Origin: Xanthomonas sp.
GTDB taxonomy: Bacteria > Pseudomonadota > Gammaproteobacteria > Xanthomonadales > SZUA-5
Length of the DNA stretch: 35,922 nt
Direction: 5' to 3'
NCBI GenBank assembly: GCA_020693165.1
Contig: JAIMJQ010000024.1
Span: forward strand, 1 to 35,922
The notes below the pieces were generated by a model, which saw nothing but the letters and a program-made list of their open reading frames with translations, was not told the DNA's origin and made no database searches. Of this stretch, positions 5,151 through 30,288 are shown piece after piece (within the stretch, counting starts at the first letter, position 1; each line of letters starts with the position of its first letter). A program made the position numbers and the translations under genes.

Positions 5151-5489
5151 GATTCAATGACTTACGCCATGGGTTCATGGAAAGTGGCCCGCTTCTGTTC
5201 GAAGCTGCACACGAAACATCGACCTTGTCATTGCGAGGAGCGCAGCGACGAAGCAATCCAGCGACTTTGCCTCTGCTCTGGGTGTATCGAAGAAGAGGCG
5301 CTGGATTGCTTCGCTGCGCTCGCAATGACGAATCAATGACTTACGACATGGGTTCATGGAAAGGAGCGTAGCGACGAAGCAATCCAGCGACTTTGCCTCT
5401 GCTCTGGGTGTATCGAAGAAGATGCGCTGGATTGCTTCGCTGCGCTCGCAATGACGAATCAATAACTTACGACATGGGTTCATGGAAAG
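5151..5489. repeat. Tandem array of 179-bp palindromic repeat units
   Basis: GGGTTCATGG boxes lie at 5171-5180, 5350-5359 and 5476-5485. The first interval is 179 bp, identical to the period at 1-194. It contains the inverted repeat with arms 5227-5261 and 5301-5329. The second interval is 126 bp: the unit starting near 5362 has lost 53 bp, including the outer part of its left arm, while its right arm (5427-5455) is intact. The linker CAATGACTTACGCCATGG, with small changes, precedes each box. Confidence 0.85.
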
Positions 5490-18600: not shown

Positions 18601-18950
18601 GGATTGTTCCTCTGTTGCGACTTGCGTCGATGATCGCGCCGTCAGACTGCGCAATCTGCGGATTCCCGCGGACGCGAGCAGCGTTGCAATAATGGCTTGC
18701 CGCAATATCCTGCCGTTCAGGCGCGCCCTGCTGCTGCCCGTTGTCACTGGGGTGCTCAGTTGTTCTGAATACGTTTGCACGCCGGCCGCAGTGCCGGCGA
18801 CGGCGATTAAGCTCCCCCGACGCAATGTCGAAGGCGGCTGGCGCCCTCGCTGTTGCGGCTGGCGACCGTGACCTGTCTTTGTAGCCACCTTCGATGGCGT
18901 TCGGGCTATACGTCCAGTGTGCCGAGTCCCCGTCTCAGCGAGAGTGTTCG
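18601..18950. other. Divergent intergenic region, EF-hand pseudogene to glgP
   Basis: 350 bp with no supported gene. It must hold the promoter of the glgP-glgB-glgX-malQ operon. A possible -10 box TATACG lies at 18907-18912, 39 bp before the glgP ATG, but no clear -35 hexamer is at the right distance. The short frames here have no recognisable protein features. Confidence 0.5.
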
Positions 18951-21446
18951 ATGACCGATAGTTCTGTTGCCAGCAACGGCGCCAATTCCGCATTCAATGA
19001 CGCCACTCGCGCGGAGCTCGCGATCGAGCTGCTGCCGCGCGCGGCCAGCGTGGAGCAGCGCCGAGCGGCGCTGCTGCGGGCACTGGGCAGCGTCTGCCGC
19101 GGCGAATTGCTGCGACGCTGGGCGCGCACCCAGGCGGCTGACGCGCAGGCACTGGCGCAGGGTCGGGCGCGTCGGGTGCACTATTTGTCGATGGAATTCC
19201 TGATCGGTCGCGCGCTCAACAATGCGTTGTCGGCGATGGGCGTGGTGCCGGGGCTGCAGCCGCTGCTGGACAGCTTCGGGCTGCGACTCGGCGATGTGCT
19301 TGAAGGCGAAGCGGATGCGGCGCTCGGAAACGGCGGGCTGGGTCGCCTGGCCGCCTGTTTCCTCGATGCATTCGCCGAGCTTGGATTGCCGGCGTTTGGA
19401 TATGGGCTGCGCTATCAGTACGGCATGTTCGCGCAACAGATCCAGGACGGGCGCCAGGTCGAAGTCGCCGACGACTGGATGCCGGATGGCAATCCGTGGG
19501 AAGTCGCGCGCCCGGAACTGCGCTATGGGGTCGGCTTTGGCGGCCGCGTCTATTCCGACGGCGACGGTCGCCGCTGGACGCCCGGCGAACTGATCAACGC
19601 CCGTGCCTATGACTTCATCGTGCCGGCGCAGCACGGCGAGCATGTCGCCACCTTGCGCCAGTGGCACGCAAGCACCGCCGAATCGATCGACTTCAATGCC
19701 TTCTGTCGCGGCGACTATGCCGCTGCAGCGCAGCAGCGGATTGCTGCCGACGCTTTGAATTGGGTGCTGTATCCGGACGACAGTACCGACGCCGGTCGCG
19801 AGTTGCGTCTGAAACAGGAGTATCTGCTGGTTTCAGCCTCGCTGCAGGATCTGCTGGCGCGGCATCTGCGCGAGGGGGGTCTGATCGAGCATCTGGGTCG
19901 CCGCAACGCGATCCATCTGAACGACACGCATCCGGCGCTGGCGCCGGCGGAACTGATGCGCCTGCTGATGGACGAGCACGGCCTTGATCGCGTGAGCGCG
20001 TGGCGCATCACCCGCCAGGCACTGTCCTACACCAACCACACGTTGCTGCCGGAGGCGCTGGAAACCTGGCCGGTCGCGATGCTGACGCGGCTGCTGCCGC
20101 GACACATGGAGATCATCTTCGAAATCAACGAGCGCCTGTTGGCCGAGGTGCGCGCGCGCATTCCCGGCGACGAGGCGCTGGTGCAGCGGGTTTCGGTGAT
20201 CGAAGAGGCCGACGGCCGCCAGGTGCGGATGGCGGGTCTGGCGATCGTCGCCTCGCACAAGGTCAACGGCGTCGCCGCGCTGCATTCAAGGCTGATGCAG
20301 GACACCATCTTCGCTGACTACGCGCGCCTGTACCCGCAGCGATTCTTCAATGTGACCAATGGCGTCACGCCGCGGCGCTGGTTGCAGCAAGCCAACCCGG
20401 GCCTGTCGGCCTTGCTCGATCGGCGGATCGGCCCGGGCTGGCGCCGCGACCTCGAGCTATTGGCGCAGCTGCGCGCGGGGGCCGACGACGCGCAGTTGCA
20501 AAGCGAGTTCATGGCGGTCAAGCAAGCCAACAAGGAGCGACTGGCTGGGCTTGTCCGACGCGAACTCGGGCTGATCGTTGATCCGACCAGTCTGTTCGAC
20601 GTACAGATCAAGCGCATCCATGAATACAAACGGCAACTGTTGAACCTGTTGCACGTGGTTGGACGCTACCAGGCCATGCTCGCCAACCCTGAAGGCGAAT
20701 CCGGGCGCGGCTGGACCGCGCGTACGGTGATCCTCGCCGGCAAGGCGGCATCTTCCTATCGGACGGCGAAACTGATCGTGCAGCTGGCACACGACATCGC
20801 CCGCGTCATCAACAGCGATACACGCGTGGCCGATCGGCTGAAGCTGGTGTTCGTGCCCAATTACGGCGTCAGCCTGGCGGAGGTCATCATTCCTGCGGCC
20901 GACCTCTCGGAGCAGATTTCCACCGCCGGCACCGAAGCGTCGGGCACCGGCAACATGAAGCTGGCGCTCAACGGCGCTTTGACCATCGGCACCTGGGACG
21001 GCGCCAACATCGAGATGGCGCAGGCGATCGGCGTCGACGATGTGTTCATCTTCGGCTGCAGAGTCGAGGATATCGCAGGCCTGCGCGCCACCGGCTACGA
21101 TCCGCAACTCTACGCCGAACAGGACTACGCGCTGCGCCAGGTGCTTGATGCAATAGCCGATGGCGCTTTTTCGCCGGGCGAGCCGGGTCGCTATCGAGAC
21201 CTGATCCATGGCCTGCTGCATCGCGACCGCTATTTCCTGCTTGCCGATTACAGCGACTACGTGGCCGCACAGGCGCGCGTCGATGCGCTGTTCGAGACGC
21301 CGCATCGGTGGGCCGCCAAAGCGCTGAGAAACATCGCCGGCATGGGCATGTTTTCCGTCGATCGCAGCGTCCGCGAGTACTGGGATCAGGTGTGGTCGCC
21401 TGCGGCGCTGGCCGCCAGCCATCAGGATGGCCGCAGTCATGCTTGA
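18951..21446 (+). CDS. glgP: Glycogen/maltodextrin phosphorylase (copy 1)
   Basis: 831 residues, the full length of a GT35 phosphorylase. It releases glucose-1-phosphate from alpha-1,4-glucan ends, using pyridoxal phosphate. Conserved segments are HYLSMEFLIGRALNNAL near 80, LGNGGLGRLAACFLDAFA near 125-142, the IKRIHEYKRQLLN block near 548-560, and the PLP-lysine segment GTGNMKLALNGALTIGT with K670. The ATG at 18951 was chosen because upstream sequence is not conserved; a frame opens at 18894. It is the first gene of the glycogen operon. Its stop lies just inside the glgB coding sequence. A second phosphorylase is encoded at 27584-30070. Confidence 0.95.
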   Translation: MTDSSVASNGANSAFNDATRAELAIELLPRAASVEQRRAALLRALGSVCRGELLRRWARTQAADAQALAQGRARRVHYLSMEFLIGRALNNALSAMGVVPGLQPLLDSFGLRLGDVLEGEADAALGNGGLGRLAACFLDAFAELGLPAFGYGLRYQYGMFAQQIQDGRQVEVADDWMPDGNPWEVARPELRYGVGFGGRVYSDGDGRRWTPGELINARAYDFIVPAQHGEHVATLRQWHASTAESIDFNAFCRGDYAAAAQQRIAADALNWVLYPDDSTDAGRELRLKQEYLLVSASLQDLLARHLREGGLIEHLGRRNAIHLNDTHPALAPAELMRLLMDEHGLDRVSAWRITRQALSYTNHTLLPEALETWPVAMLTRLLPRHMEIIFEINERLLAEVRARIPGDEALVQRVSVIEEADGRQVRMAGLAIVASHKVNGVAALHSRLMQDTIFADYARLYPQRFFNVTNGVTPRRWLQQANPGLSALLDRRIGPGWRRDLELLAQLRAGADDAQLQSEFMAVKQANKERLAGLVRRELGLIVDPTSLFDVQIKRIHEYKRQLLNLLHVVGRYQAMLANPEGESGRGWTARTVILAGKAASSYRTAKLIVQLAHDIARVINSDTRVADRLKLVFVPNYGVSLAEVIIPAADLSEQISTAGTEASGTGNMKLALNGALTIGTWDGANIEMAQAIGVDDVFIFGCRVEDIAGLRATGYDPQLYAEQDYALRQVLDAIADGAFSPGEPGRYRDLIHGLLHRDRYFLLADYSDYVAAQARVDALFETPHRWAAKALRNIAGMGMFSVDRSVREYWDQVWSPAALAASHQDGRSHA

Positions 21447-23673
21447 TGAAGCTGCGGTGGAAGCGCTGCTGGCAGCGCGTCACTCAGACCCGTTCGCGGT
21501 ACTCGGCTTGCACCATGACGCAGTCGGCGCGCTATGGCTGCGCGCGCTGCTACCGGGGGCAAGCAGCGTCGAAGTGCTCGACGCGATCACTGGGAAACGC
21601 CTGGTGGCGCTGGCGCTGCGCCATCACGACGGTTTGTTCGAAGGGCGCATACCGGTGCGGCGCAAGCGTTTCGACTACCGCCTGCAGGTGCGCTGGCACA
21701 ACGGCAGCAGCGACGTCTACGCCGACGCCTATTCCTACGGCGTGCTGGTCAGCGACGAAGAGCTGCAGGCCTTTCACGAGGGGCGCCATGGGCGTCCGTA
21801 TGCGCTGCTGGGGGCGCATCCGATGTGCATGGGCGAGGATGCACACGTCGGTGGGCGCATCCCGGCATCGCGATCAACGGCTGCGAACCAGGTTCGCGCC
21901 TACAGCGGCCCGGTCCACGGTACCCGCTTCGCAGTCTGGGCGCCGAACGCGAGTCGGGTCAGCGTGGTCGGCAGCTTCAACGGCTGGGACGGCCGACGTC
22001 ACCCGATGCGCCTGCGTCACCCATCCGGCATCTGGGAGATCTTCGTCCCGCATGTCGCCATCGGCGATCTCTACCGGTTCGAGATTGTCGACAGTCAGGG
22101 TCTGCTGCTGCCGCTGAAATCCGATCCGTATGCCTTTGCCGCGCAACTGCGCCCGCAGACGGCCAGTCGCGTGACCGGGTTGCCGCCCGAGCGGCACCTT
22201 CCCGCCGGGCGGGCTGCAGCCAACGAGCGCCATGCACCGATCTCGATCTATGAGGTGCACGCTGCGTCGTGGCGGCACGCCGCCAGCAGCGGCTTCCCGG
22301 ACTGGCGCGAGCTGGCAGCGCAATTGCCGGCCTATGCCGCCGGCCTTGGCTTTACCCACATCGAGCTGCTGCCGATCAGCGAGCATCCGCTCGATGGCTC
22401 CTGGGGCTACCAGCCGGTCGGCCTGCATGCGCCCACTGCGCGCCATGGCGATCCCGCAGGGTTGGCCGAATTCGTCGACGCCTGCCACGCCCACGGCCTC
22501 GGCTTGCTGCTCGACTGGGTGCCGGCGCATTTCCCGTCCGACGCGCATGGGCTGGCAAAGTTCGATGGCACCCCGCTTTACGAGTATGCCAACCCGAAGG
22601 AAGGCTTCCATCGCGACTGGAACACGCTGATCTACAATTTCAGCCGCACCGAGGTGCGCAGCTTCCTGATCGGCAGCGCACGCTTCTGGATGGAGCGCTA
22701 CGCGGTCGATGGTTTGCGCGTCGATGCCGTCGCTTCGATGCTCTACCGCGACTACTCGCGCAATGCCGGCGAGTGGCTGCCGAATGCTTTCGGCGGGCAC
22801 GAAAACCTGGAGGCAATCTCGCTGTTCCGCGCGCTGCACGAGCAATTGGGCCTGGAGTGTCCCGGCTCGGTCACCATCGCCGAGGAATCCACCTCATTTC
22901 CCGGCGTCTCGGCGCCGACCTATGCCGGCGGGCTCGGTTTCCATTACAAATGGAACATGGGATGGATGAACGACACGCTGCGCTATATGAGCGTGGACCC
23001 GATTTACCGGCGCTGGCATCACGACCGCATGAGCTTCGGTCTGGTTTACGCCTTCAGCGAGAACTTCGTGCTGCCGATCTCGCACGACGAAGTCGTGCAC
23101 GGCAAGGGCTCGATGCTGGGCAAGATGCCCGGCGATGACTGGCAGCGCTTTGCCAGCCTGCGGGTCTACTACGGCTTCATGTGGGGACATCCGGGCAAAA
23201 AGCTGCTGTTCATGGGTCAGGAGTTTGCCCAGCCGACCGAATGGAATCATGAGCAGGCGTTGCCCTGGCATTTGCTCGACGATGCTCGGCATGCCGGAAT
23301 GCAGCGCCTGATCCGCGATCTGAACCACCTGTATCGACGCCTGCCGGCGCTGCATCGACTCGATTGCGAGAGCGGCGGTTTCAAGTGGCTGGTCGGCGAC
23401 GATCGCGACAACTCGGTCTATGCATGGGCGCGGCACGACGGCAACGGCGCTAGCGTCGTCGTCGTGTGCAATTTCACGCCGGTGCTGCACCATCATTATC
23501 CGCTGCCGATGCCCGCGGGCATGCGCCGCTGGCGCGAAGTGCTGAACAGCGACTCGTCCTGCTATGGCGGCAGCAACCAGGGCAATGGCGGCCATGTCCT
23601 CAAGGCCGATGCCCAGGGATGCATGCATCTGGTACTGCCGCCGCTGGCAGCCCTGTTCCTGGTGCCGGCATGA
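21439..23673 (+). CDS. glgB: 1,4-alpha-glucan branching enzyme
   Basis: 744 residues, GH13 subfamily 9. It cuts alpha-1,4 chains and re-attaches them as alpha-1,6 branches. An N-terminal N1 module begins HSDPFAVLGLHHD, and a CBM48 module (about 145-250) contains VVGSFNGWDGRRHPM. The catalytic barrel follows: nucleophile D429 (GLRVDAVASMLYRDY), acid/base E482 (TIAEESTSFPGV) and transition-state Asp D550 (PISHDEVVHGKGSM). Start: ATG 21439 is preceded by AGGATGG at about 8 bp and overlaps the glgP stop by 8 bp. ATG 21427 would add four residues. Its TGA overlaps the ATG of glgX. Confidence 0.95.
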   Translation: MLDEAAVEALLAARHSDPFAVLGLHHDAVGALWLRALLPGASSVEVLDAITGKRLVALALRHHDGLFEGRIPVRRKRFDYRLQVRWHNGSSDVYADAYSYGVLVSDEELQAFHEGRHGRPYALLGAHPMCMGEDAHVGGRIPASRSTAANQVRAYSGPVHGTRFAVWAPNASRVSVVGSFNGWDGRRHPMRLRHPSGIWEIFVPHVAIGDLYRFEIVDSQGLLLPLKSDPYAFAAQLRPQTASRVTGLPPERHLPAGRAAANERHAPISIYEVHAASWRHAASSGFPDWRELAAQLPAYAAGLGFTHIELLPISEHPLDGSWGYQPVGLHAPTARHGDPAGLAEFVDACHAHGLGLLLDWVPAHFPSDAHGLAKFDGTPLYEYANPKEGFHRDWNTLIYNFSRTEVRSFLIGSARFWMERYAVDGLRVDAVASMLYRDYSRNAGEWLPNAFGGHENLEAISLFRALHEQLGLECPGSVTIAEESTSFPGVSAPTYAGGLGFHYKWNMGWMNDTLRYMSVDPIYRRWHHDRMSFGLVYAFSENFVLPISHDEVVHGKGSMLGKMPGDDWQRFASLRVYYGFMWGHPGKKLLFMGQEFAQPTEWNHEQALPWHLLDDARHAGMQRLIRDLNHLYRRLPALHRLDCESGGFKWLVGDDRDNSVYAWARHDGNGASVVVVCNFTPVLHHHYPLPMPAGMRRWREVLNSDSSCYGGSNQGNGGHVLKADAQGCMHLVLPPLAALFLVPA

Positions 23674-25907
23674 TCACGCACCTGCCTGCTGCGCTATTGC
23701 CCGGGCGTCCGGCCCCTTTCGGTGCCACATTGGTTGACGCCGGCATCAACTTTGCCGTGTGGTCGGATCACGCCGTGCGCATCGAACTTTGCGTGTTCGA
23801 TGGCGATGGCGCGCGCGAGCTGTGCCGCTATGACCTGGAAGGCCCGGAGGATGGCGTTTTCTGCGGCCTGCTGCCGGGACTCGGCGCCGGGCTGGTTTAT
23901 GGCTTTCGGGCACATGGACCGTATGCGCCAGAGCGCGGTCACCGGTTCAATCCGAACAAGCTGCTGCTCGATCCCTATGCCCGCGAGATCGTCGGCAAGT
24001 TCTGTCTGGAAGACGTCCAGCACGGTTATGAGCTCGGTCATCCAGACGGCGCGCGCTCTTTCGACAGCCGTGACAACGGGCTGGTGGCGCTGAAGGCGCG
24101 AGTGCTGGCGCCGTTCCCGGCGGTCGACTGGCAACGCCCGCAGCGGCGCACCACCGACGTGGTGCTGTACGAGGCGCACGTCAAGGGCTTTTCGATGCAG
24201 CTGCCGGGCCTGCCGGAACAACTGCGCGGCAGCTATGCGGCCCTCGCGCACCCGCTGGCCATCGCTCATTTCCAGCGCCTCGGCGTGACCACGCTGTCGC
24301 TGCTGCCGGTGCAGCAGCGGATCAGCGAACCCGGTCTGGCGCGCGCGGGACTGAGCAATTACTGGGGCTACAACACCATCGGGTTCTTTTGTGCGGATCC
24401 AAGGATGGCGGCAGCAGGCAAAAGCGGGGCAGGGGGCAGGGGGCAGGGGGAATGGCATAGCGCACCTTCTGGCACCGTCGCACACCCCCATGACCGCGAC
24501 ACTGCATTTGCGAGCGACTCAGCCGGTCCCCTGCCCCCTGCCCCTTGCCCCGCTTTTCTCACCCCCGCCGAAGAATTCCGCCAGATGGTGCGCGCGCTCC
24601 ACGCCGCCAACCTCGAAGTCGTCATCGATGTGGTTTACAACCACAGTGCCGAGGGCAGCGAGCTCGGTCCGACCATCAGCTTCCGCGGCCTCGACAATGC
24701 CAGCTGGTATCGCGGGCTGCCCGGCGATCCCGGTCGTTGCGAGAACTTCAGCGGCTGCGGCAATACCCTCAATGTGGCGCATCCGCGGGTGACCCAGTTC
24801 GTGCTCGACTCCCTGCGCTTCTGGGTGCGGGAAATGGGAGTCGATGGTTTTCGTTTCGATCTGGCCACCACCCTTGGGCGGACTGCGCACGGTTTCGAGC
24901 CGGACGCTGCGTTTTTCGTGGCGTTGCGCCAGGATCCGGTGCTGGCGCAGGTCAGGCTGATTTCCGAACCCTGGGACCTCGGCCCCAACGGCTACCAACT
25001 CGGACGCTTTCCGGGTCGCTTCCTCGACTGGAACGATCGTTTCCGCGATGCCGTGCGCGGCTACTGGCTGCAACGTGGCGTCACCCGAGGTGAGTTCGCG
25101 CGGCGCTTCTGCGGTTCCAGCGATCTGTTCCACCACGGCCAGCGCCGCCCCACCGCAAGCGTCAACTTCATCAGTGCGCATGATGGCTTCACGCTGGCCG
25201 ACATGGTCAGTCATGCGCACAAGCACAATCACGCCAACGGCGAGAACAACCAGGATGGTCGCAGCAACGAGCCGAGCGACAATTTCGGTGTCGAGGGCGC
25301 GACCGTGGATGGTTCGATCCTGATCGTGCGCCGACGCGTGCGCCATGCCTTGCTGGCGACCCTGCTGCTCGCCCAGGGAACTCCGATGCTGCTTGCCGGC
25401 GACGAGTCCGGAAACAGTCAGCAGGGCAACAACAATGCCTATTGTCAGGACAATCCGATCGGGTGGCTCGACTGGGTTCCGACACACGACGACAGTGTCG
25501 AACTGGTGCGCGCGTTGTTGCGTCTGCGTGTCGCTGAGCCACTGCTGCATTGTGGCGACTGGTTTGGCGGCGCCCACGACGATGCTGACGTGCGGGTGCT
25601 CTGGCGTACGCCGAGCGGCCGCGAGATGCAGGTCCACGATTGGCACGACCACCAGCAACGCGCCTTCGGCTGCGAACTGATCGAGGCGCAGGCAACCGCG
25701 CCGCGCCTGCGCCTGTTGTTCAATCCCGAGGCGGCACCGGTGATGTTCGAGCTGGGTGCGCGGGATTGGCGCGTGCATCTGGACAGCAGCGGCGAGCATA
25801 TGGCCATCGGCGCCGAGCCAATCCCGATTTCCGACACCCAGATCCTTGCGCCAGCCCGCAGCCTGCTGGTGCTGACGCGGCCCTCAAGTTCCGAGACCAC
25901 TCCATGA
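23670..25907 (+). CDS. glgX: Glycogen debranching enzyme (isoamylase type) with palindromic insertion
   Basis: 745 residues, longer than the roughly 660 of E. coli GlgX. It hydrolyses alpha-1,6 branches of phosphorylase-limit dextrins. The N-terminal CBM48 module (about 10-150) starts GRPAPFGATLVDAGINFAVW. Catalytic residues are D397 (GFRFDLATTLG), E433 (ISEPWDLGPNGYQLG) and D505 (SAHDGFTLADMV). Between the conserved NYWGYNTIGFF and VIDVVYNHSAEG segments, residues about 251-296 are a Gly/Pro-rich stretch encoded by a 138-bp inverted-repeat element (24420-24557). The frame is kept and no stop arises. The ATG overlaps the glgB TGA (ATGA at 23670-23673), and the stop overlaps malQ likewise. Confidence 0.93.
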   Translation: MITHLPAALLPGRPAPFGATLVDAGINFAVWSDHAVRIELCVFDGDGARELCRYDLEGPEDGVFCGLLPGLGAGLVYGFRAHGPYAPERGHRFNPNKLLLDPYAREIVGKFCLEDVQHGYELGHPDGARSFDSRDNGLVALKARVLAPFPAVDWQRPQRRTTDVVLYEAHVKGFSMQLPGLPEQLRGSYAALAHPLAIAHFQRLGVTTLSLLPVQQRISEPGLARAGLSNYWGYNTIGFFCADPRMAAAGKSGAGGRGQGEWHSAPSGTVAHPHDRDTAFASDSAGPLPPAPCPAFLTPAEEFRQMVRALHAANLEVVIDVVYNHSAEGSELGPTISFRGLDNASWYRGLPGDPGRCENFSGCGNTLNVAHPRVTQFVLDSLRFWVREMGVDGFRFDLATTLGRTAHGFEPDAAFFVALRQDPVLAQVRLISEPWDLGPNGYQLGRFPGRFLDWNDRFRDAVRGYWLQRGVTRGEFARRFCGSSDLFHHGQRRPTASVNFISAHDGFTLADMVSHAHKHNHANGENNQDGRSNEPSDNFGVEGATVDGSILIVRRRVRHALLATLLLAQGTPMLLAGDESGNSQQGNNNAYCQDNPIGWLDWVPTHDDSVELVRALLRLRVAEPLLHCGDWFGGAHDDADVRVLWRTPSGREMQVHDWHDHQQRAFGCELIEAQATAPRLRLLFNPEAAPVMFELGARDWRVHLDSSGEHMAIGAEPIPISDTQILAPARSLLVLTRPSSSETTP
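24420..24557. repeat. 138-bp GC-rich inverted-repeat element inside glgX
   Basis: The left arm 24420-24450 begins AAAAGCGGGGCAGGGGGCAG. The right arm 24527-24557 is its reverse complement with only one internal mismatch over 30 bases. The loop is 76 bp. Arms of the GGGGCAGGGGGCAG type are known as dispersed palindromic repeats. The element is 46 codons long, so its insertion leaves the glgX frame open. Confidence 0.85.
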
Positions 25908-27448
25908 TCGAGCTCCATCAGCGCAGTGCCGGCGTCCTGCTCCATATCACCTCGCTGCCTGGACCATTTGGTATTGGCGATTTCGGGCCGGGCGCCTACC
26001 AGTTCGTCGACTGGCTGGTCGCAGCCAACCAGCGTGTGTGGCAATGGCTGCCGATCAATCCGATCGGCCCCGGCAACTCCCCGTACCAGAGTGTCAGCGC
26101 GTTCGCTGGCAGTCCTTTGATGGTGGCGCTGGAGCCGCTGGTGGCGAGCGGTTGGTTGCTGCCACCGACGCTTCCGGAAGGCGGCTTCGACAGCGCTCGC
26201 GTGGAATTCGAGCGGGTGGTGCCGTGGCGGTTGGCGCAACTGCGGCAAGCCGCGCGGGGATTCTTTGCCAATGCCAGTGCCATCGAGCACGCGGAGTTCG
26301 CGCACTGGTGCAGCGAACAGGCGAGCTGGCTTGACGACTACTCGCTGTTCATGGCGCTGGAGGCGGCGCACGTTGGCGCTGCCTGGTGGTACTGGCGGTC
26401 GGACTTGCGTGATCGTGTTCCGGGCGCGCTGGTCGCAGCGCGACTGGAGTTTGCCGACGAAATCCGCTTCTGGCAGTTCGTGCAGTGGTGCTTCGATCAG
26501 CAGGCCTCGGCGCTGAAGCGGTATGCCAACCAGCGCAACGTGAGCCTGATGGGCGATCTGCCGATCTTCATCGCCCATCACAGCGCCGACTGCTGGGCGC
26601 GTCCTGACCTGTACTACCTGGATGACCATTTCCAGCCCACGGTAGTGGCTGGATGCCCGCCGGATGCGATGGCGCCGACCGGCCAGCGCTGGGGCAATCC
26701 GTTGTATCGCTGGGAGCGCATGGCCGCAGAGAACTATGCCTGGTGGACGGCGCGTCTGCGTCGTGCGCTACATCAGGCCGATGTGATCCGCATCGACCAT
26801 TTCCGCGGCTTTGCGGGCTATTACGCGATCCCGGCGAGTTGCCCGACTGCCGAAGAGGGCGAATGGGTGGACGGCCCCGGCAAGGCCTTGTTCGATGCGA
26901 TCAGTGCCGAACTCGGCGAGTTGCCGATCGTCGCCGAGGACCTTGGGCTGATTACCGCCGATGTCATCGAATTGCGCGATGGTTGCGGCTTTCCCGGCAT
27001 GAAGATCCTGCAATTCGCATTCAGTGGGGATGCCCGCAACGAATTTCTTCCGCACAACTACACGCGGCATTGTGTCGCCTACACCGGCACGCACGACAAC
27101 GACACGGTGCGTGGCTGGTGGCACAAGGCCAGCCCGCGCGAGCGCGCCTACGCGGGCAGATATCTGGCACCCGGCGCCATCGACGTGCACTGGGCGATGA
27201 TCCTCGCGTGCTGGAATTCGGTCGCAAATATCGCCGTGGCGCCGTTCCAGGACGTACTTGGCCTCGACAGCAACCACCGGATGAACATCCCCGGTACCAT
27301 GGGCAACCACAACTGGAGCTGGCGCTTCCGTTGGGACATGGTCGGCGACGAGGCCGCCCGCGTGCTCGGTTTGATCACTGCCGCAAGCGGGCGCGGGTCG
27401 GTCGAGCCGATGCTGGCCGAGGACGCTCAGCTTGAAGCAATGGCGTAG
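25904..27448 (+). CDS. malQ: 4-alpha-glucanotransferase (amylomaltase)
   Basis: 514 residues, the size of the compact GH77 enzymes such as Thermus amylomaltase. It transfers maltodextrin segments between chains, freeing glucose and making longer chains that phosphorylase can use. Catalytic residues are visible at the expected places: nucleophile D298 (DVIRIDHFRGF), acid/base E345 (IVAEDLGLIT) and D398 (GTHDNDTVRGWW). The N-terminus RSAGVLLHITSLPGPFGIGD is typical. The ATG at 25904 overlaps the glgX TGA (ATGA), so this is the last gene of the coupled four-gene operon. It faces the second glgP gene across 135 bp, in which I see no strong terminator. Confidence 0.95.
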   Translation: MIELHQRSAGVLLHITSLPGPFGIGDFGPGAYQFVDWLVAANQRVWQWLPINPIGPGNSPYQSVSAFAGSPLMVALEPLVASGWLLPPTLPEGGFDSARVEFERVVPWRLAQLRQAARGFFANASAIEHAEFAHWCSEQASWLDDYSLFMALEAAHVGAAWWYWRSDLRDRVPGALVAARLEFADEIRFWQFVQWCFDQQASALKRYANQRNVSLMGDLPIFIAHHSADCWARPDLYYLDDHFQPTVVAGCPPDAMAPTGQRWGNPLYRWERMAAENYAWWTARLRRALHQADVIRIDHFRGFAGYYAIPASCPTAEEGEWVDGPGKALFDAISAELGELPIVAEDLGLITADVIELRDGCGFPGMKILQFAFSGDARNEFLPHNYTRHCVAYTGTHDNDTVRGWWHKASPRERAYAGRYLAPGAIDVHWAMILACWNSVANIAVAPFQDVLGLDSNHRMNIPGTMGNHNWSWRFRWDMVGDEAARVLGLITAASGRGSVEPMLAEDAQLEAMA

Positions 27449-27583: not shown

Positions 27584-30070
27584 CTACTGGCGATTGATCG
27601 CCGACACGGTGGGCAGCTTCCAGATCTCGCGGTTGTAGTCGCCAATCGTGCGGTCGGTCGAAAACTTGCCGCTGGCGCTGGTATTCATGATCGCCGAAAT
27701 CGCCCAGTTTTCGGCGTTCTGGTATAGCGCCGCAGCGCGCTGCTGCGCCGCCACGTAATCGGCGAAATCGGCACATACCATCCAATAGTCGCCAGCGTCG
27801 GTGAGGCTGTGCAAGATGTCATCGAAAATCCCCGGCTCGCACGGATTGAAATGGCCGACGCGGATCAGATTGATGACGCGGGCGAGGTTTTCATCGGCGG
27901 CAATCACCGACCCTGGGTTATATTCTGGGCGCAGCGCAGCGATTTCCCGTGTGGTTTTTCCAAACAGGAAGAAGTGCTCGGCGCCGACTTCTTCGCGAAT
28001 TTCAATATTAGCACCATCGAGCGTGCCAATGGTCAGTGCGCCGTTCATCATGAACTTCATGTTGCCGGTACCCGAAGCCTCCTTGCCGGCGGTGGAAATT
28101 TGCTCACTCAGGTCGGCTGCGGGACAGATCACTTCCATCAGCGAAACGCTGTAGTTGGGGATGAAGGCGACACGCAACCAGTCGCCGATCTCCGGGTCCT
28201 GATTGACCACATCGGCAATGGAAGTGATGAACTTGATGATCAACTTGGCCATCGCATAACCCGGCGCCGCCTTGCCGCCAAACAGCACGCAGCGCTTCAC
28301 CATCCCGCCAGTATCTCCACGCTTGATCCGCGCATACAGATGGATGACATGCAACGCGTTGAGCAGTTGGCGTTTGTATTCGTGGATGCGCTTGACCTGA
28401 ACGTCGAACAACGCGTCCGGCGGAAACTCGACCCCGCACTGGTGTTTGATCAGCGCGGCGAGGTCTCTCTTGTTGGCTGCCTTGATTGCCCGCCAGCTTG
28501 CCCGGAAAGCGCTATCGCGGGCCATCGGGGCGAGTTGGTGCAACTGCTCAAGATCGGTGATCCAGCCATCGCCGATGGTCTTGGTGATCAGCGCCGAGAG
28601 GCGCGGATTGGCCAGTGCCAGCCAGCGCCGCTGGGTGACCCCATTGGTCTTGTTGTTGAATTTGTCTGGCGCGAACTCATGAAAATCGCGCAGCAGACCC
28701 TCGGTCAGCAGACGGCTATGCAATGCAGCGACACCATTGACCGAAAAGCTGCCGACAATCCCCAGCCACGCCATGCGCACCATTGGCGTCGGGCCGTCGT
28801 CGATGATCGACATCCGTGCTTGGCGGTGGGTGTCGCCAGGCCAGCGATTGGCGACTTGCCGCAGAAAGCGGGCATTGATCTCATGGATGATCTCCAGATG
28901 CCGCGGCAGCAACGTCCGGAACAGGGCGACCGGCCAACGTTCCAGCGCTTCGGGCAACAGCGTGTGGTTGGTATAGGCCATGCAGCGGTTGGTGATGCTC
29001 CAGGCCATGTCCCATTCAAGGCCATGTTCATCCATCAGCAGCCGCATCATTTCCGGTATGGCAATGGTGGGGTGGGTGTCATTGAGTTGACATACGTGCT
29101 GCTCGGCGAAATGGGTGAAATCCTCTCCGCGAACCCGCTTCCAGCGCCGCAAGATGTCCTGCAAACTCGCCGAGGCGAGGAAGAACTGCTGCTTCAGGCG
29201 CAGCTCCTTGCCGTGCGCGCTTTGGTCGTTGGGGTACAGCACTTGCGAAATGCGCTCGGCATCACTCTGCGCCGAGACCGCTGCGGCGTAATCGCCGGCG
29301 TTGAACTCGGCCAGATTGAACTGCTCCAGCGAAGAGGCGCGCCACAAGCGCAGCGTGTTTACCGTGCCATTCTTGTAACCCGCGATCGGAAAATCGTGGG
29401 GAATCGCAAGGACATCGTCGGTGTCGGCCCAGCGCCAGCGCGCATGGCCATGTTCGTCGGCGTACATTTCGCTGTGGCCGCCAAACTTGATTCGCATCGT
29501 GTACTCGTGGCGGACGATTTCCCATGGAAAATCGTGCGCCAGCCAATGGTCGGGATCCTCGACCTGATAACCCTTGACGATGCGTTGCAGAAACATGCCG
29601 TAGTCATAACGGATGCCATATCCGATCACGGGTAACTGCAAGGTTGCGCAGCTGTCGAGAAAGCAGGCTGCCAGACGCCCCAGGCCACCGTTGCCCAGAC
29701 CGGCGTCATGCTCTTCCTCGGCAATATCCTCCAGGCGCAGACCAAGTTGCCGCAGCGCGTGTTCCATCTCCTCGGTCAGTCCCAGGTTCAGCAGGGTATT
29801 GCCGAGCGCCCGACCCATCAGATATTCAAGCGAGAGATAGTGACCACGGCGCGCGTTGGACTGGAAATAGGCGCCGCGTGTGGCTTCCCAGCGATCCATC
29901 AGGCGATCGCGCACGGCGAGCACGGTTGCGGTATAGCGATAGCGATTGCTGTCGTTGTAGCGATCGCGTCCGAGCGTGTAGGTCAGGTGACGCTGGATGT
30001 CGTGCTGCAGGCTCTCGGCGTCCATGCCCAGGGCAGGCAGGGGCGGGGCATCGGGAATAAGGCTGTTCAC
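27584..30070 (-). CDS. glgP: Glycogen/maltodextrin phosphorylase (copy 2)
   Basis: 828 residues if the GTG at 30070 is the start. The frame is open to 30250, but the upstream part looks non-coding; an internal ATG at 30025 is also possible. This is a second full GT35 phosphorylase. Landmarks are RRGHYLSLEYLMGRALGN near 85-102, GLGNGGLGRLAACFLDS near 134-150, VKRIHEYKRQLLNALHV, and the PLP site GTGNMKFMMNGALTIGT with K672. Sequence segments differ clearly from copy 1, for example LDGANIEIREEVG against WDGANIEMAQAIG. They are therefore diverged paralogues, not a recent duplication. It converges on malQ and diverges from ppdK. Confidence 0.94.
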   Translation of the reverse strand: MNSLIPDAPPLPALGMDAESLQHDIQRHLTYTLGRDRYNDSNRYRYTATVLAVRDRLMDRWEATRGAYFQSNARRGHYLSLEYLMGRALGNTLLNLGLTEEMEHALRQLGLRLEDIAEEEHDAGLGNGGLGRLAACFLDSCATLQLPVIGYGIRYDYGMFLQRIVKGYQVEDPDHWLAHDFPWEIVRHEYTMRIKFGGHSEMYADEHGHARWRWADTDDVLAIPHDFPIAGYKNGTVNTLRLWRASSLEQFNLAEFNAGDYAAAVSAQSDAERISQVLYPNDQSAHGKELRLKQQFFLASASLQDILRRWKRVRGEDFTHFAEQHVCQLNDTHPTIAIPEMMRLLMDEHGLEWDMAWSITNRCMAYTNHTLLPEALERWPVALFRTLLPRHLEIIHEINARFLRQVANRWPGDTHRQARMSIIDDGPTPMVRMAWLGIVGSFSVNGVAALHSRLLTEGLLRDFHEFAPDKFNNKTNGVTQRRWLALANPRLSALITKTIGDGWITDLEQLHQLAPMARDSAFRASWRAIKAANKRDLAALIKHQCGVEFPPDALFDVQVKRIHEYKRQLLNALHVIHLYARIKRGDTGGMVKRCVLFGGKAAPGYAMAKLIIKFITSIADVVNQDPEIGDWLRVAFIPNYSVSLMEVICPAADLSEQISTAGKEASGTGNMKFMMNGALTIGTLDGANIEIREEVGAEHFFLFGKTTREIAALRPEYNPGSVIAADENLARVINLIRVGHFNPCEPGIFDDILHSLTDAGDYWMVCADFADYVAAQQRAAALYQNAENWAISAIMNTSASGKFSTDRTIGDYNREIWKLPTVSAINRQ

Positions 30071-30288
30071 GCGGACGACCTGATCATTGCGGAGTTCGAG
30101 CACGGCTTGCGACCAACTGCCGAGTGTGCCCGCGCACCCCGTATGGCGCAAGGCTGCTGCTGTGCAGTCGCCGAATCTGGTCCGAGTGCCGCTGATCATT
30201 GAGGCTGCGCAAAGTCCGTGCGGCGGGCGTGGACGAATATCTGCCGCCAAGCATCACCTCGATCCACACTCCCAGGCAGGTACCTCCC

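Follow-up and report, generated by a model that had tools for sequence, protein, structure and literature searches.

In-frame palindromic elements with G-rich heptad arms in glgX and other conserved genes of a Xanthomonas sp. genome and its relatives

Results

A 138-bp palindrome occupies 46 codons of glgX

The stretch of DNA analysed here (the window; 35,922 bp, contig JAIMJQ010000024.1 of assembly GCA_020693165.1, Xanthomonas sp.) carries the gene order glgP-glgB-glgX-malQ, which is intact around a palindromic element located inside glgX (Table 1). Two separate glycogen/starch-family phosphorylase genes, at 18,894–21,446 and at 27,584–30,250 (minus strand), flank glgB-glgX-malQ. The genome itself (G000) is a draft of 149 contigs, 77% complete, with N gaps at some copies of the element described below.

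Table 1. Features at the glgX locus, in window coordinates.
Feature	Coordinates	Strand	Evidence
glgB (context), overlaps glgX start	21427..23673	+	NF003811 910 bits
glgX (glycogen debranching enzyme, 745 aa, carries insert)	23670..25907	+	TIGR02100 837.6 bits; Foldseek 2wsk
palindromic element, 138 bp, = GlgX residues 251–296 (KSGAGGRGQGEWHSAPSGTVAHPHDRDTAFASDSAGPLPPAPCPAF)	24420..24557	+	inverted repeat; not in relatives; pLDDT <50 at 254–293
left arm, G-rich: AAAAGC then GGGGCAG heptads	24420..24449	+	
loop, 78 nt, between arms; no significant similarity to other copies' loops	24450..24527	+	
right arm, C-rich, GCTTTT at end	24528..24557	+	
malQ (context), overlaps glgX stop	25904..27448	+	NF011080 671 bits

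An earlier note on this DNA, made from the letters alone, had described the element as 30-base arms with one mismatch around a 76-bp loop. The arms and the overall extent are as described, with 29 of 30 arm positions complementary (97%), while the loop is two nucleotides longer than stated. The glgX reading frame remains open throughout, so that the element is read as 46 residues from K251 to F296 with no stop codon, in line with the in-frame insertion that the note had proposed. GlgX scores above the TIGR02100 cut-off (640.9 bits) and aligns with the model in two stretches, the better of which starts at residue 300, just past the insert. The downstream part of the enzyme is intact, as claimed, with catalytic residues D397, E433 and D505 invariant in 51 aligned GlgX sequences. 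A plasmid search with glgX returned just ordinary distant glgX genes.

The left arm contains a perfect tandem GGGGCAG array (24,426–24,450; 3.6 units) in which four G-tracts of 4–5 bases, separated by two-base spacers, form a putative G-quadruplex motif. A 20-nt arm pattern, searched with up to three mismatches, matched twice in the window, where chance would give 0.01 matches and no shuffle gave two, and the glgX element is the sole pair of such G-rich heptad arms within the window. Folded as RNA together with its flanks, the element gave −109.1 kcal/mol (z = −7.8 relative to shuffles); folded alone, it gave z = −10.8.

Relatives carry a short variable loop at the insertion site

In 31 relatives, including the congener G001 (matching Lysobacterales MAG contig JALHRS010000006.1) and the family member G005, the 46 residues are missing, and the conserved DPR and EFR motifs are joined by a short loop whose length varies. 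The sequence reads DPRLGAAAADPTALIAEFR in G001 and DPRMAAAG-[46 aa]-LTPAEEFR in GlgX of the window. With the element subtracted, the latter loop is three residues shorter than that of G001, so a small loss of residues may have accompanied the insertion. The note had also anticipated duplicated residues at the junction; none were evident.

AlphaFold2, run on the 51-sequence alignment, returned a model with pLDDT 88.8 and pTM 0.91, pLDDT falling below 50 at residues 254–293 of the insert; insert-free GlgX was represented by the natural orthologues in that alignment. The top Foldseek match of the model was E. coli GlgX (2wsk; TM 0.96 by target length). In the structural check suggested earlier, the GlgX fold is thus predicted to stay intact, with the insert forming a disordered loop on it.

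The element belongs to a dispersed, lineage-restricted family

Exact matches to the arm sequence GGGGCANGGGGCANGGGG number 93 in the element's own genome (213 with up to one mismatch), as a search for further copies proposed in the note had foreseen, and 690 and 64 in the congeners G001 and G002. Three family members (G004, G005 and G007) hold 31–92 arm matches, while three others have none; there is next to nothing elsewhere in the order, and only five of 368 other genomes of the class have matches, with 1–3 each. The family is therefore dispersed and lineage-restricted. Its layout consists of convergent GGGGCAN heptad arrays, each a potential G-quadruplex judging by its G-tracts, around mostly unrelated loops. 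Among neighbouring arms less than 260 nt apart, 66 pairs run G-rich then C-rich, against three in the reversed order and five on the same strand.

The outer end AAAAGC...GCTTTT is common to many copies. The loop is conserved in a class of short-loop copies (36–50 nt), and copies of a class with CAC arms contain an inner palindrome, GTGGGTCCAGAC...GTCTGGACCCAC. Beyond the short-loop and GTGGGTCCAGAC classes, no homology was recognised among the loops of long copies, a grouping that was read by eye, as clustering chained some loops through leftover heptads.

Other palindromes were seen in the same material. The contig end (35,709–35,922) holds a palindrome, GTGGGTCCAGACTTGTCTGGACGC, and after it a tandem array of 39-bp units (4.3 copies); the same inner palindrome also occurs between CAC-type heptad arms elsewhere in G000 and in G001. 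A second dispersed palindrome family is represented by a 126-bp unit (~97% identical) present twice in tandem at 5,236–5,489 (GAAGCAATCCAGCGACTTTGCCTC...), with a related inverted repeat at 80–144.

In-frame copies recur in conserved protein genes

Copies were called in-gene from coding-frame scores to either side of the element and a frame that stays open through it, followed by a Pfam check; candidates L148:635, L152, L163 and L311 were dropped at this stage, their spanning ORFs having no family match. In its own genome, the family is found in frame in valS (138 bp, with an N gap in the loop), mutS (between domains I and II, as also in G001), hrpA (within DUF3418) and a transglutaminase/DUF2126 gene. 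G001 carries a copy in the PHP region of DNA polymerase III alpha, and G002 has four in-frame elements in polyketide/PUFA-type synthases. Two such G002 synthases (L286 and L279) contain several heptad palindromes in apparent interdomain linkers, partly tandem-duplicated.

In-frame valS copies are also present in the congeners. The insert sites in valS, mutS and hrpA are common across the genus, and outgroups have an empty site in all three genes. Since valS is expected to be essential, its product should work with the insert, at least there. The hrpA site of G001 (L338) is occupied by another kind of hairpin-forming stretch, not built of heptads (z = −3.8), which suggests that this site takes palindromes of several kinds. 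In G001 valS (L332), a second and separate in-frame expansion (REIREGILKGNPSWPKNW... and ASATNNVADADIY...), not heptad-like, lies at approximately residues 298–314 of the G000 protein.

Heptad arrays are readable in any frame

As the repeat unit is seven bases long, and thus not a multiple of three, a GGGGCAG array cycles through all frames and yields one peptide from any of them: (GAGGRGQ)n, or (LPPAPCP)n from the complementary arm. Stop codons are missing from all six frames in 56 of the 64 possible GGGGNNN heptads. Each of the 59 gap-free elements keeps one or more frames open, with a mean of 3.8 of six versus 3.2 in shuffles. With arrays free of stops, a copy needs no more to reside in frame than a net length that is a multiple of three, a loop that is open and a site that tolerates it. 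In-frame residence alone is consequently no sign of selection for a peptide.

Arms differ between species and match within them at valS

In G000, 22 of 23 pairs had arms of one shared heptad type (mean 11.7 and maximum 20 over 5000 shuffles), and in G002 this held for 17 of 17 pairs (mean 10.5, maximum 15). The coupling fails in G001, with 5 of 16 pairs. This sample is biased, the regions having been picked with the window element as query. At the valS site the heptads are of the CAG type in G000, the CTG type in G002 and GGGACCC units in G001, in each case mirrored in both arms. The outer ends of the element, including GCCCCGCTCCTGCTCC, are common to G000 and G002, and the empty-site outgroups lack GCCCCGCTCCTGCTCC. 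Arms paired within their own species match at 21/21 and 24/26 positions, against 18/21 and 22/26 for cross-species pairing, and at this one site neither the loops nor the lengths are conserved from species to species.

The simplest reading of these alignments would be one ancestral insertion followed by a coordinated change of the arms; repeated insertion at one spot is the alternative. The two arms agree inside each species but not across species, which suggests hairpin-templated correction of one arm by the other. Template switching at quasipalindromes is a documented route by which hairpin arms are made and mended (PMC8794818), and it also appears as an arm-repair route in the available text of PMC7202029 and PMC8604942.

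Discussion

We consider that the GlgX segment is probably a copy of a lineage-restricted hairpin family, residing as a neutral passenger in a length-tolerant surface loop, with its arms kept by slippage and template switching. The parts of this explanation differ in strength: membership of the family and insertion into the protein are near certain, and the template-switch component stands about even. An element would have inserted into a surface loop of GlgX that tolerates changes in length. Where a copy adds a multiple of three bases and its loop is open, it would be read through and become a disordered protein loop, with the arrays encoding a Gly-rich peptide from the G arm and a Pro-rich one from the C arm. 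Insertions that break an enzyme would be lost, and those in variable loops or interdomain linkers would survive. The arms would be kept complementary and homogenised by replication slippage and hairpin (quasipalindrome) template switching, with no dedicated transposase. A further-reaching version, which we put forward tentatively, is that a hairpin mechanism at the DNA level continually rewrites palindromes within essential proteins, as the joint change of arm type in valS would indicate, so that non-coding repeat dynamics write and rewrite disordered loops that stay readable since no frame is a wrong one for a 7-nt unit.

Mobility in the strict sense, and the way in which copies spread, are something we can only infer. 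The earlier note had regarded the element as a mobile repeat tolerated as a protein insertion; the insertion is borne out, and the mobile part is not. A rival reading is a conventional mobile element of the MITE or REP type, which a RAYT or another transposase would move in trans and which landed in frame by chance. It would account for dispersed copies of MITE-like size with matched inverted arms and AAAAGC...GCTTTT outer ends, for the presence of RAYT-type genes in most genomes of the family, and for the conserved loop of the short-loop subclass. Against it, G002, which is 99% complete, carries elements with no Y1/RAYT transposase match at all, and G000 has two matches, one of them with stops (G001 has five), so that RAYT is not supported as a general mover. 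No GTAG or CGTC tag was seen on the elements, neither glgX nor valS showed a recognisable target-site duplication, and whole-unit copying lacks support, as the dispersed long-loop copies share arms and no recognisable loops. We therefore find this explanation unlikely.

The element might instead silence or attenuate glgX, with the stem and its TTTT, or a G-quadruplex in the mRNA, stopping RNA polymerase or the ribosome and leaving glgX (and malQ) a pseudogene or under regulation. The stem is very stable and is followed by TTTTCTC; the glgX copy keeps its four T, whereas in 10 other in-gene copies the T runs do not exceed two; malQ overlaps glgX in a tight operon, which would make a terminator within glgX polar; and G-quadruplexes in ORFs can suppress expression, according to work cited in the accessible part of PMC4692102. 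We nevertheless judge attenuation improbable, given the intact frame with every catalytic residue kept, the comparable in-frame hairpins in valS, and a run of only four T behind a long loop. The difference in T runs from other element ends is slight (1/11 in-gene versus 22/100), and thus gives no clear sign of selection against in-gene terminators. A selected function of the Gly/Pro-rich peptide or of the mRNA structure in GlgX is very unlikely. The valS, mutS and hrpA sites are shared across the genus, which speaks for inserts retained for long, but loops and lengths are not conserved between species at one site, unrelated genes are hit, and the GlgX insert is predicted to be disordered and is missing from G001 GlgX. 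Finally, we regard as extremely improbable that a repeat-driven join placed the element into glgX during assembly. The draft state of the genome and the N gaps at some copies could be read that way; however, the loop and both flanks are unique, the conserved glgX segments all continue across the element, the surrounding gene order is undisturbed, and the congeners, which were assembled independently, likewise have such in-frame elements in valS and mutS.

The closest known systems include the G-quadruplex heptad repeats described by Rehm et al. (2015, PMC4692102), with GGGAATC as the unit in Xanthomonas and GGGGA(C/T)T in Nostoc. The present elements share with them tandem G-rich 7-nt units with at least four G-tracts, as well as dispersal, lineage enrichment and convergent pairs. 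In the available text, Xanthomonas genomes have 70–75 convergent inverted pairs each, at sites that are kept between species while length varies. Here, the units are GGGGCAG/CAC/CAA/CTG, most neighbouring arms are paired convergently, and several copies sit in frame well inside conserved proteins; in Xanthomonas, 7–11% of repeats are intragenic, and the accessible part of that paper reports no analysis of protein insertion. In structural terms the glgX element resembles a MITE, with 30-nt terminal inverted repeats, a length of 138 bp, inside the 70–300 bp range of MITEs, and no transposase of its own.

In their mode of residence, the elements resemble the Rickettsia palindromic elements (RPEs), which are palindromes of ~150 bp in frame in unrelated, presumably functional genes, where the protein structure is predicted to tolerate them (Ogata et al. 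2000, 2002, as summarised in PMC10969869 and PMC3733652). In both cases conserved protein genes carry in-frame insertions and relatives have the empty site (here glgX, valS, mutS and hrpA). Sequence and host lineage are different, and RPEs, as those summaries have it, encode a conserved peptide, whereas here the arms alone recur; with no conserved whole-unit sequence or peptide and with unrelated long-copy loops, assignment to the RPEs was rejected. Intragenic REPs with GTAG/CGTC tags (Di Nocera et al. 2013, PMC3733652) likewise place palindromes in coding genes, including tRNA synthetases (X. oryzae), dnaE2 and repair genes. They are 20–40 bp long, and the GTAG ones often go with RAYTs, in contrast to a 138-bp unit with 30-nt heptad arms, AAAAGC/GCTTTT ends, no such tag seen and one RAYT-less carrier. 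Long inverted repeats within protein genes are known from nematomorph mitochondria too (PMC6649704, accessible part); those are in animal mitochondria and of unrelated sequence, whereas here the palindrome itself is an added loop, missing from relatives.

In the literature compared, which lies mostly outside subscription journals, the novelty lies in a combination of features, with heptad-armed palindromes recurring as insertions in proteins and three species sharing orthologous sites. That such repeats can enter genes with no stop in any frame is simply explained by the seven-base unit. With sister elements in frame in essential genes of this bacterium and of its relatives, a DNA-level repeat appears to keep adding putatively disordered loops to working proteins, and the orthologous sites allow testing how palindromes keep their arms complementary. 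In-frame palindromes, known first from Rickettsia and later as short REPs, thus extend here to a G-quadruplex-heptad type in another lineage, reaching valS, mutS and DNA polymerase III alpha.
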